Shown piece after piece: positions 36,413 to 43,824 of a stretch of 43,824 nt of DNA. The notes under the pieces were generated by a model. That model ran no database searches. It was not told the origin of the DNA and saw only the letters and a program-made list of their open reading frames with translations. Source of the stretch: Dehalococcoidales bacterium (GTDB taxonomy: Bacteria; Chloroflexota; Dehalococcoidia; Dehalococcoidales; JAFGLR01); NCBI GenBank assembly GCA_016927955.1, contig JAFGLR010000012.1, positions 1 through 43,824 of the forward strand, written 5' to 3'. Within the stretch, counting starts at the first letter, position 1; every line of letters begins with the position of its first letter. The translations under genes were made by a program, and so were the position numbers.

Positions 36413-37132
36413 ATGCATCTCAATCGGATAACGATTTCATCACAGGAATTTCCTACCAGGGATTTTTACCCTTTTAACTTGAGCATCCTGCAAAATACCG
36501 ACAGTATCTCCTTTACTCGTCCGGTAACTTTCTTCGTAGGGGAAAACGGGACCGGAAAATCCACCCTGTTAAAAGCCATTTGTCGCCGGTGTCATATACA
36601 TATCTGGGAGGATACCGAGCACAATCGCTACCAGTATAATTCTTATGAAGATGAACTTTATAAATATATTGAGATAGATTGGGTTAATGGTTCCGTGCCG
36701 GGTACATTCTTTGCATCTCAAATATTTCAGGACTTTGCCCGTTTTTTGGATGAATGGGCTTGTGCTAGCCCGGGAATACTGCCTTATTTCGGTGGTAACT
36801 CTCTATTGGCGCAGTCTCATGGACAATCCTTATTAGCTTTTTTTAAAGCTCGCTATAAAATCAAGGGACTCTACTTTCTGGATGAACCAGAAACCGCTCT
36901 TTCGCCGAAGAGTCAGATTAAGTTGCTACAGATTCTGAAAAATAATAGTAAAGCCGGCCAAGCCCAGTTTATTATTAGTACCCATTCACCCATTTTGCTA
37001 GCCTTTCCGGAAGCGACGATATACAGTTTTGACAAGACGTCGGTGGAAACGATCAGCTATAAAGATACAGAAATGTACCACCTCTATAAGGATTTTATTA
37101 ATAACCCTGAGGAATATCTGGAAAAGCTTTAA
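36413..37132 (+). CDS. AAA (ABC-type, OLD-like) ATPase
   Basis: ORF 239 aa; FFVGENGTGKSTLLKAICR Walker A, YFLDEPETALSP Walker B, ISTHSPILLAFP. Confidence 0.88.
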   Translation: MHLNRITISSQEFPTRDFYPFNLSILQNTDSISFTRPVTFFVGENGTGKSTLLKAICRRCHIHIWEDTEHNRYQYNSYEDELYKYIEIDWVNGSVPGTFFASQIFQDFARFLDEWACASPGILPYFGGNSLLAQSHGQSLLAFFKARYKIKGLYFLDEPETALSPKSQIKLLQILKNNSKAGQAQFIISTHSPILLAFPEATIYSFDKTSVETISYKDTEMYHLYKDFINNPEEYLEKL

Positions 37133-37758: not shown

Positions 37759-38664
37759 TCAAGACTGTTCGTAATATGACCAATCTTTACTATTCAAGGA
37801 ATTCGTCTCTAAGTTAATATAATATTCCATCCCGAATTTGAAGTACCCATGAGGAAGCGGATTTCTTGCCAAAGGATTATGTATGAAAATGAAATTATCA
37901 CCCATTCTTTTGGGCTTGTTAAAGAGATCTGTTCTTGAATATAGAATACCACTTAATCCATCGTAATTTTGGTTGAGAAATAAATCGGTTGGAACCGAGC
38001 TAGTATTATAGCGATAAATCTTGTCCCTATATTGATAACTCCAATAAGGCTTTACACCCGCTCTTTTACTAATAGTTACCTGTGGATCACCAAACGGAAG
38101 GACTGCTTTTAATATTCGCGGTATATCAGTTTCCATTATCGCCTGTTTTATCTTACATGAGTTTAATGCAATAACGTACACGTCGTTAGACGAAATGGAG
38201 TTGTTTTTAAGATATGACTTATATTTCTCAAACTTATCCGCTATAGCACTGCAATATCTGAGAGTAATTTCTTCATCTGGAACTTTTACGGCCGTCATTA
38301 ATGGCATCTCGTGTACTCTATCTTTATTGTCCGAAATGCCTTCAGAAGGAGTGACAGCTTCTAAGTATATAGAATTACAAGGATTGAGGATTTTTATATC
38401 AGGACCTTTAGCATATGTGAGCCTTGGGCATACGCTACAAGACTTTTCAAGTAGCGTACAAGTAAGATACATTTCCCAAAAGCGAGCTGGAAAATCTTCA
38501 GATAGCTTCTGTGGAAAATCTTTGTCCGCGTATTCATGATATCGATTCCATAAATGTTCCATAAAATTTTTACCAGAAAATATTTCAGGCCGCGTACAAT
38601 CGCGAACCATAAGATAAGTAGTATCTTTGGAATTTATTGTGTCTCTAAATAGTTTACTATTCAT
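37759..38664 (-). CDS. Hypothetical protein with possible PD-(D/E)XK nuclease-like core
   Basis: ORF 301 aa; FPARFWEMYLTCTLLEKS...GPDIKILNPCNSIYLEAVTPSEG resembles an E...D-x(n)-E core. Confidence 0.5.
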   Translation of the reverse strand: MNSKLFRDTINSKDTTYLMVRDCTRPEIFSGKNFMEHLWNRYHEYADKDFPQKLSEDFPARFWEMYLTCTLLEKSCSVCPRLTYAKGPDIKILNPCNSIYLEAVTPSEGISDNKDRVHEMPLMTAVKVPDEEITLRYCSAIADKFEKYKSYLKNNSISSNDVYVIALNSCKIKQAIMETDIPRILKAVLPFGDPQVTISKRAGVKPYWSYQYRDKIYRYNTSSVPTDLFLNQNYDGLSGILYSRTDLFNKPKRMGDNFIFIHNPLARNPLPHGYFKFGMEYYINLETNSLNSKDWSYYEQS

Positions 38665-41145: not shown

Positions 41146-41301
41146 TACTTTCCGACAGTGTAAAAAACTGTTTCTGAACCAGGTGGTGAACCGGATGTTG
41201 TACCGAAAGATAAAATTTTTTGTACTTCGCCTGGAACGGATAGTTGGACCTTTAGCAACAAATCATGAACCACTATATCCTGAATCATTACCACAAGGGT
41301 A

Positions 41302-41331
41302 TTGACATTAACTTCCTATTTCTTTTATCAT
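41302..41331 (+). promoter_or_regulatory. Candidate sigma70-type promoter for the Mom-like/recombinase module
   Basis: TTGACA (41302-41307), 18-nt spacer, TATCAT (41326-41331). Confidence 0.5.
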
Positions 41332-41363
41332 TATCTTAATTGAATAAGGTAAGTTATTTTTAT

Positions 41364-41423
41364 CCTTAAGCTCCGTAAGGGCTCTTAAAAGCCCGGCAGC
41401 AGCTAAGTATCTCGGTAACGAGA
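41364..41423 (+). ncRNA. Unassigned structured leader RNA
   Basis: GGGCT-cttaaa-AGCCC (41379-41394), alternative CCTTA/TAAGG (41364-41380), and TCTCG-GTAA-CGAGA GNRA hairpin (41410-41423). Confidence 0.45.
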
Positions 41424-41476
41424 GGGCACCGGATAAAGCAAGCGTAAAGCTATGTTTTATCCGGTGCCCTTTTTTA
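41424..41476 (+). terminator. Intrinsic terminator/attenuator just upstream of the Mom-like ORF
   Basis: GGGCACCGGATAAA ... TTTATCCGGTGCCC (14-bp stem, 41424-41469) followed by a T-tract. Confidence 0.85.
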
Positions 41477-41495
41477 TTGTCTGAGGAACGGAATT

Positions 41496-42242
41496 ATGGA
41501 AAACGGAATTAATCCCTGGGAGAAGAGAATAACAGGCGCCGCGGGTGTGATCGGCAGCACAGCATCTACCCAAGATGAAGGATGCGGTTCGAATCCGACA
41601 GCGGCGCTCCACGAAATTATAGTAAAACCAATACCAAAAATAGCGGCTAAGAAACTCCTCGAACGCGAGCATTATCTCCATTCCTTGCCCGGCGGTACGA
41701 AGCTTTCCTTCGGTATCTTTCTGAATAACAGGCTTCTAGGGGCCGTAACTTTCGGGGTTGGACCATTTTTGGCTTATCGTCTCGTAAAAGAAGCTACACC
41801 GGAAGATTGCATTTGCCTGACTCGACTATGGTTATCCGACGAATTGCCTTCTAACAGCGAATCACGCATTTTGGGAATTCTAAACCGGTACTTGCACCGT
41901 TATACTGACCTGAAATTCATAATTGCATATAGCGATCCGTCGGCAAAACATGTCGGTACGGTTTATCAAGCTGGCGGTTGGCTTTACACAGGGCTTTCGT
42001 CAAGCATGCCTTTATATAATGTCGGTGATGGTAGACCCCGTCATTCCCGAACATTAGCTCATTCTCTAGGTTCCCATTCGATTCGTTACCTCTCACAACA
42101 TGGTCTTTATGTAAAACTGGTTGCTCAGCTACCAAAGCACCGCTATATCAAGTTTTTAGATGATTCCTGGCGGTGCCGTCTGTTAGTGCCAGTACTCCCC
42201 TACCCTAAGAGAGAAAAGGTCGTTTCAAATGAAATTAACTGA
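41496..42242 (+). CDS. Mom-like (phage Mu DNA-modification-like) GNAT-fold protein
   Basis: ORF 248 aa; LLEREHYLHSLPGGTKLSFGIFLNNRLLGAVTFGVGP...LTRLWLSDELPSNSESRILGILNRYLHR...AYSDPSAKHVGTVYQAGGWLYTG...PKHRYIKFLD. Confidence 0.65.
   Translation: MENGINPWEKRITGAAGVIGSTASTQDEGCGSNPTAALHEIIVKPIPKIAAKKLLEREHYLHSLPGGTKLSFGIFLNNRLLGAVTFGVGPFLAYRLVKEATPEDCICLTRLWLSDELPSNSESRILGILNRYLHRYTDLKFIIAYSDPSAKHVGTVYQAGGWLYTGLSSSMPLYNVGDGRPRHSRTLAHSLGSHSIRYLSQHGLYVKLVAQLPKHRYIKFLDDSWRCRLLVPVLPYPKREKVVSNEIN
41536..41611 (+). tRNA. tRNA-Gly(CCC)-like sequence (non-canonical or pseudo-tRNA) inside the 5' part of the Mom-like ORF
   Basis: 7-bp acceptor GCGCCGC/GCGGCGC, 4-bp D-stem GTGT/GCAC with GG in loop, anticodon loop TACCCAA, GGTTCGAATCC T-arm, U73 + CCA encoded; lacks U8, A14, U33 and has a bulged A in the T-stem. 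Confidence 0.7.
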
Positions 42243-42864
42243 TCTGGAAATCGAAAGGCTTAAAGAGGCTCCCTGGAATGCCAACCAGATGGATGAGGCT
42301 ATGCTATCCCGGCTAAAAGAAAGCATTAAGCGTTACGGTATTGTGGAAAACATGGTGGTCCGCCCTATCGATAATGAGCGTTACGAGGTACTCTCCGGTA
42401 ACCAGCGGTTGAAAGTACTTAAAGAAGCCGGCATAAAACAATTGCCTTGTGTAACCGTTAATCTGGATGATGCTAATGCCCGCTTGCTGGCACAGGCACT
42501 CAATCATATCCATGGCCAGGACGATCTGGGGCTCAGGGCGGAATTACTCCAGCAGGTATTAGAGACAATGGAGAAAGAGGATATTCTTTCACTGCTCCCG
42601 GAAACGGCACAAAGTCTTAATAGGATGGCTGCAATGGGCAAAGAAACCGTCGCCGAGTACTTAATAAAGTGGCAAAAAGCCCAGTCGGCTCGATTGAGGC
42701 ATTTACAGTTCCAGTTGACCCAATATCAACTGGCAGTTGTTGAAGAGGTACTGGCAGATTTTCTACCGGTAGCAAAACAAAAGCCGGGTAATAATCCTAA
42801 CACCCGGGGGACTGCCCTTTATTTACTCTGCCAAAATTACCTGGATTCAAGGAGGGGATTATGA
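42229..42864 (+). CDS. ParB-like N-terminal (ParB/Sulfiredoxin) domain protein
   Basis: ORF 211 aa; LKEAPWNANQMDEAMLSRLKESIKRYGIVENMVVRPIDNERYEVLSGNQRLKVLKEAGIKQLPCV. Confidence 0.9.
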   Translation: MKLTDLEIERLKEAPWNANQMDEAMLSRLKESIKRYGIVENMVVRPIDNERYEVLSGNQRLKVLKEAGIKQLPCVTVNLDDANARLLAQALNHIHGQDDLGLRAELLQQVLETMEKEDILSLLPETAQSLNRMAAMGKETVAEYLIKWQKAQSARLRHLQFQLTQYQLAVVEEVLADFLPVAKQKPGNNPNTRGTALYLLCQNYLDSRRGL

Positions 42865-43079: not shown

Positions 43080-43272
43080 GAAGAAAAAAATACTAGATTC
43101 CCTGTTGACACGTATACGCGCTTCGTATACACTGTCCAACACAAAAGACGGTAATTATGAAGAAGTGGATGAGGTAATGGTCAGACAATTCTTAAATACT
43201 CTGGCGGAAATTTCCCTGGCTATCGCTTCTCGAAAAAAGGTGGCTAATACCACTACGGAGAATACCTGCTGA
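43066..43272 (+). CDS. Small protein of unknown function
   Basis: ORF 68 aa overlapping both neighbours (14 nt upstream; TGATG junction downstream). Confidence 0.5.
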   Translation: MSPGKKKKILDSLLTRIRASYTLSNTKDGNYEEVDEVMVRQFLNTLAEISLAIASRKKVANTTTENTC

Positions 43273-43824
43273 TGAGAGCTGTTGCATACCTCCGGGTCTC
43301 CAGCCTCTCTCAGGTCGAAGGGCATTCTTTGGACGCTCAGGAACGGCTTTTCTATGAGGCCTGTAAACATAAAGGCTGGGAACCCGTTAAGGTCTACCGG
43401 GAAGAAGGCAAGTCGGCCCACGTCGATGCCATCGCCCGCCGTCCGGTATTCCGACAGCTCCTGGATGACGCCGGGAAAAAGCAATTCGATGTCGTGGTAG
43501 TACATACCCTCGATCGCTGGGCCAGAAATCTCCGTATCTCTTTAGAGGCCATAAGGATACTGGAGCAGTCTAATGTCGGTCTGGTTTCGATTACCGAAAA
43601 GATTGACTGGTCTACCCCTGAGGGACGCCTTACCGCCCATATGCTCGGGATACTGGCTCAATATTATAGCGATTCCTTAGGGACTCATGTCAGAAAGGGT
43701 TTAGAGCAACGGGCTGTCGAAGGTAAACATACCGGCGGTATCCCTTTTGGTTACGAGAGTTGCTGGATCGAAGGCGACAAGGGAGAGAAAAGACGCCGAT
43801 GCGAGCCGGAGCACCCGGGCGGTA
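43272..43824 (+). CDS. Large serine recombinase, N-terminal resolvase and start of recombinase domain (truncated by window end)
   Basis: Translation MRAVAYLRVSSLSQVEGHSLDAQERLFYEACKHKGWEPVKVYREEGKSAHVDAIARRPVFRQLLDDAGKKQFDVVVVHTLDRWARN...GRLTAHMLGILAQYYSDSLGTHVRKGLEQRAVEGKHTGGIPFGY. Confidence 0.95.
   Translation, partial: MRAVAYLRVSSLSQVEGHSLDAQERLFYEACKHKGWEPVKVYREEGKSAHVDAIARRPVFRQLLDDAGKKQFDVVVVHTLDRWARNLRISLEAIRILEQSNVGLVSITEKIDWSTPEGRLTAHMLGILAQYYSDSLGTHVRKGLEQRAVEGKHTGGIPFGYESCWIEGDKGEKRRRCEPEHPGG

Follow-up and report, generated by a model that had tools for sequence, protein, structure and literature searches.

Why should the 5' end of a gene for the DNA-modifying enzyme Mom contain what appears to be a glycine tRNA, and is that element real, conserved and in any way connected to the function of the enzyme? 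The question was raised by an initial annotation of a 43,824 nt stretch of DNA from a Dehalococcoidales bacterium (GCA_016927955.1, contig JAFGLR010000012.1, positions 1 to 43,824; hereafter the window). This proposed that the element could be a dedicated, non-translating glycyl-tRNA donor encoded in cis with Mom or, alternatively, a tRNA-derived integration scar. The features relevant to this question are as follows.

41421..41478 (+), strong intrinsic-terminator-like hairpin with a T-run, between a promoter-like site and mom; a possible attenuator of mom
41496..42242 (+), mom ORF, with its ATG at 41496 and GAGGA upstream; residues 1-40 (element-encoded) are of low confidence and residues 41-238 are the Mom/GNAT domain
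41536..41611 (+), tRNA-Gly-like element (76 nt), read in frame as codons 14-39 of the mom ORF
41536..41542 (+), 5' strand of the acceptor stem, GCGCCGC, pairing with 41601-41607; the first three pairs, GCG/CGC, are nearly invariant across the family
41569..41571 (+), CCC at the anticodon position in the loop TACCCAA (U33 replaced by A)
41598..41598 (+), bulged A in the 3' strand of the T-stem, a hallmark of the family
41608..41611 (+), discriminator U73 and encoded CCA
41616..42209 (+), Mom domain (PF25680)
42229..42864 (+), ParB-like gene
43272..43823 (+), N-terminal part of a serine recombinase, at the contig end, consistent with an ssrA-island-type integration module

The sequence was first examined for the structural features claimed, and each was confirmed. 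The acceptor stem is a perfect 7 bp, the T-arm is TGCGG-TTCGAAT-CCG(A)CA with the bulged A at 41598, and G replaces U8. Generic methods, however, did not report the element: it was missed by ARAGORN at default thresholds, by Rfam at gathering scores, by Rfam on 41300-41700 up to E=10, where the low-scoring hits (Atu_C8, MIR535 and a flavivirus element) are chance, and by the Rfam tRNA model on the whole genome up to E=1. Its single-sequence folding energy is also weak evidence (z=-2.0). When the ARAGORN threshold was lowered to 85%, the element was called as tRNA-Gly(CCC).

The ORF in which it lies encodes a true Mom protein (PF25680, E=6e-53, 179.9 bits against a cut-off of 27.1, positions 2-202 of 202). 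AlphaFold gives residues 1-40 a confidence near 60-67 and the Mom domain 97 from residue 41 on. The predicted fold matches the solved phage Mu Mom (PDB 8BV8, E=5e-16), after which the nearest solved folds are acetyltransferase-type GNATs and not Fem-type enzymes. Serine 123, in an NSES motif, aligns with catalytic S124 of Mu Mom, which is mutated to alanine in the inactive mutant 8BV8, and S or T is present here in 59 of 59 aligned Mom proteins. The N-terminal 'NPWEKR' of the window protein resembles the Mom C-terminal 'PYPKR'. Also in the window, an ORF at 37759-38664 (- strand) has similarity to the PD-T7-1 and PD-T7-5 anti-phage defence proteins (PADLOC E about 1e-13 to 1e-14), with an AAA ATPase gene nearby at 36413-37132.

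The element itself is not without precedent. A 76 bp 'tRNA-Gly-like' locus was described in the first 150 bp of mom in 16 Dehalococcoides ssrA genomic islands, the copies of which were aligned and folded, and in one marine fosmid (McMurdie et al. 2011, PMC3146451). It has a 'DCC' anticodon and is often annotated as a pseudo-tRNA; the authors used it as a primer target and proposed no function. The window looks like the same kind of integration module (serine recombinase, ParB, Mom). That paper does not report the element outside these islands and the fosmid, and the link to Mom across phages and phyla, the loss of translation features and a donor role are not in it. No later treatment was found in the literature searched, which included no bioRxiv set and few subscription journals.

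To determine whether the element is general, Mom homologs were collected from viral contigs, bacterial genomes, phages and plasmids. A hand-written cloverleaf scanner found it in 26 of 141 Mom loci, and was replaced by a covariance model built from 23 homologous elements (R1), the E-values of which are rough. R1 gives the window element 82 bits; although the model was trained on it, untrained mom-linked elements score 66-79 bits. The absence of a covariance score, which the initial annotation had considered would count against its reading, therefore holds for the generic Rfam tRNA model but not for a family-specific one; in a sample of 12 element-bearing loci only one reached the Rfam tRNA gathering score. 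R1 found 78 hits in 140 loci, all on the mom strand, and 76 of these lie at a mom gene. Two covariance-model hits (loci L134:3655-3728 and L060:5111-5186) are not next to the identified Mom gene.

On a tree of 91 diverse Mom sequences, 68 carry the element, 21 at the 5' end and 47 at the 3' end, and 23 lack it. The 5' form is one group, and the element also appears within the Mu-like clade. In Chloroflexi, Actinomycetota, Acetobacteraceae and Armatimonadota it precedes the Mom domain, whereas in most element-bearing phages and in several other phyla it overlaps the last codons or stop of mom. ARAGORN calls tRNA-Gly there in some loci, and Salinibacter phage B2_17 has an annotated tRNA-Gly just after mom. 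Psychrobacter phage vB_PmaS_Y8A, reported as having no tRNA genes, carries two D-arm-less elements in tandem directly after mom (locus L174:1805-1945), and a viral contig with two mom genes has one element for each (L141:1025-1101 and L141:2478-2554). A ParB-like gene is a frequent neighbor of mom, downstream in islands and upstream in phages (L174:540-1151; L181:620-1150), suggesting a ParB-Mom functional pair. The sequences without the element include phage Mu, in which none was found within the stretch examined, and a large group of related AT-rich viral Mom genes also lacks it (L066, L085, L103, L122, L131). It cannot therefore be obligatory for all Mom proteins.

The specificity of the association was tested in both directions. 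In 61 related genomes the nine best R1 hits (63-86 bits) lie next to the nine full Mom genes, while the next hits have no Mom near them and look like ordinary tRNA-Gly genes. In a sample of 301 genomes of the phylum, five elements not used for training also lay beside Mom. Conversely, a pattern for the bulged T-arm and acceptor end, containing no protein information, was scanned over viral contigs, and 76 of 80 listed hits and 38 of 40 further hits (114 of 120) have Mom within 400 nt on the same strand. The matching pattern for a canonical tRNA-Gly T-arm gave 1 of 80 loci. Of the four exceptions in the first batch, one is cut by the contig end just after a Mom-like C-terminus, two lie near a contig end, and one has Mom 1320 nt away. 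As the bulged pattern was written from mom-linked elements this was not a blind search, but it shows that this RNA family is rarely found elsewhere.

Selection acts on the RNA. In the plain MAFFT alignment of 23 elements, 95.4% of cells pair and 13 of 20 pairs change on both sides. The covariation score is 0.562 against 0.161 in shuffles (0 of 500 shuffles as high) and at most 0.142 when partners are slid. Acceptor pairs 1-3 never vary in that set, while pairs 4-7 vary freely. This covariation contradicts the alternative offered by the initial annotation, an integration (att) scar or captured host tRNA fragment retained as a harmless N- or C-terminal extension of Mom. Although many mobile elements integrate in tRNA genes and the window element lies near a serine recombinase, the best-matching host tRNA-Gly agrees at only 52 positions in a gapped alignment and shares no 3' block beyond the generic GGTTCGAATCC. 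Furthermore, the Dehalococcoides islands integrate at ssrA (PMC3146451), and in phages the element is found inside the gene cluster, for example beside terminase genes, and not at attachment ends. The scar is rejected.

The features retained and lost were compared over 70 distinct elements. G1-C72 is present in 68, C2-G71 in 68, G3-C70 in 64, U73 in 67 and CC in the anticodon loop in 68; G1-C72, C2-G71, U73, C35 and C36 belong to the bacterial glycine identity set read by glycyl-tRNA synthetase, GlyRS (PMC9976931). U73 is kept although 17 of 70 elements do not encode CCA. In contrast, U33 is kept in only 21 of 51 seven-nt loops and 15 loops have six nt, T55 is kept in 25 of 70, and the T-stem carries an extra base at the same place in 66 of 70, an A in 62. 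Short forms of about 66-70 nt lack the D-arm. Canonical tRNA-Gly genes processed in the same way (33 in total) gave 28 of 29 for U33, 33 of 33 for T55 and 1 of 33 for the bulge. The RNA-first set repeats the pattern (U33 24 of 67, CC 94 of 101). The window element keeps T54-T55 but has A33 and the bulge. These losses argue against decoding, and so against a decoy or replacement tRNA-Gly carried by phages to counter tRNA-targeting defence or glycine-codon shortage and linked to mom only as a neighboring counter-defence gene. Phages do seem often to carry tRNAs, and defences that attack tRNAs are likely to exist, but the linkage to Mom is nearly exclusive and within about 160 nt, and the element also occurs in island-borne mom genes. 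This explanation is considered very unlikely.

The same stretch is also read as protein. All 23 distinct 5' elements are free of stops in the mom frame, while 12 and 15 have stops in the other two frames, and start codons lie upstream in every 5' locus, within 2-44 nt in most and often with a good ribosome site. However, the frame used relative to the RNA differs between lineages, such that all three frames are used, and eight 3' elements run past the mom stop. A conserved peptide therefore does not explain the conservation; the RNA is the conserved object, usually kept compatible with translation of Mom. That it is kept inside an open reading frame could also point to a role as part of the mRNA, as a cis-acting tRNA mimic which Mom, GlyRS or a tRNA-processing enzyme binds or cuts, so tuning the amount of a toxic enzyme, without the RNA ever being a glycine donor. 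Expression of mom appears to be tightly regulated in phage Mu, and in the window (41302-41478) a strong promoter-like site (TTGACA-18-TATCAT) is followed by the very stable terminator-like hairpin just before mom, although such hairpins are shared only with the nearest relative. The position of the element, at the 5' end in one Mom clade and the 3' end in others, would be odd for a leader-type regulator, and U73 and C35/C36 stay nearly fixed while other paired bases change freely. A purely cis-regulatory role is not excluded, but is thought unlikely.

The best explanation is that the element is a dedicated, non-translating tRNA-Gly encoded within the gene of the enzyme it serves, as the initial annotation had suggested. 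Every prediction of this idea that could be computed was borne out, but in the absence of RNA, charging or modification data it remains an inference, to which we assign a probability of about 0.66. In this model the transcript is read either as mom mRNA or, after tRNA-type processing, as a small tRNA. Host GlyRS would charge it, while the T-stem bulge and the altered T- and anticodon loops would keep it from EF-Tu and the ribosome. Mom would then transfer glycine from it to N6 of adenine in DNA. The known Mom product, N6-carbamoylmethyl-adenine, is an N6-glycinamide-type adenine (Swinton 1983, cited in PMC3146451), and has exactly the atoms of adenine plus one glycyl residue (C2H3NO). We infer on chemical grounds that acylation of N6 by glycine, followed by a Smiles-type attack of the glycine amine on C6 through a five-membered ring, would give this product without any other nitrogen source. 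A review names an acyl-CoA such as glycyl-CoA as the donor (PMC7824862), although glycyl-CoA does not appear to be an established metabolite. Mom proteins without the element, such as that of Mu, which is of the same protein family and shares the catalytic serine, would presumably use host tRNA-Gly.

There are parallels for the separate parts of this model. Staphylococcus aureus has non-proteinogenic tRNA-Gly used for cell-wall cross-bridges, which can be charged and has altered elements to escape translation (PMC9976931), and the partner Fem enzymes are GNAT-fold transferases (PMC12945691). Those tRNAs appear to be stand-alone genes and the acceptor is a peptidoglycan precursor, whereas here the RNA lies inside the coding frame of its partner and the proposed acceptor is a DNA base. 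Gly-tRNA-dependent GNAT-fold transferases such as Orf11 in BD-12 biosynthesis also transfer glycine from Gly-tRNA, but these are double-GNAT Fem-like proteins with a small-molecule acceptor, and no private tRNA is described (PMC12945691). More tentatively, as the one transcript would be both the mRNA for Mom and the precursor of its private glycyl-tRNA, excising the tRNA may consume the message and so balance enzyme against donor.

The donor and chemistry of the Mom modification, the product of which was described in 1983, appear to have stayed open. A private glycyl-tRNA would answer both and, if the donor step is shown, this would be a new kind of DNA modification, adding DNA to the short list of acceptors of tRNA-borne amino acids. 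The element marks many phage genomes as testable carriers. A private glycyl-tRNA would also give a clear case of a tRNA kept inside the coding frame of the enzyme it serves, with both readings under selection.
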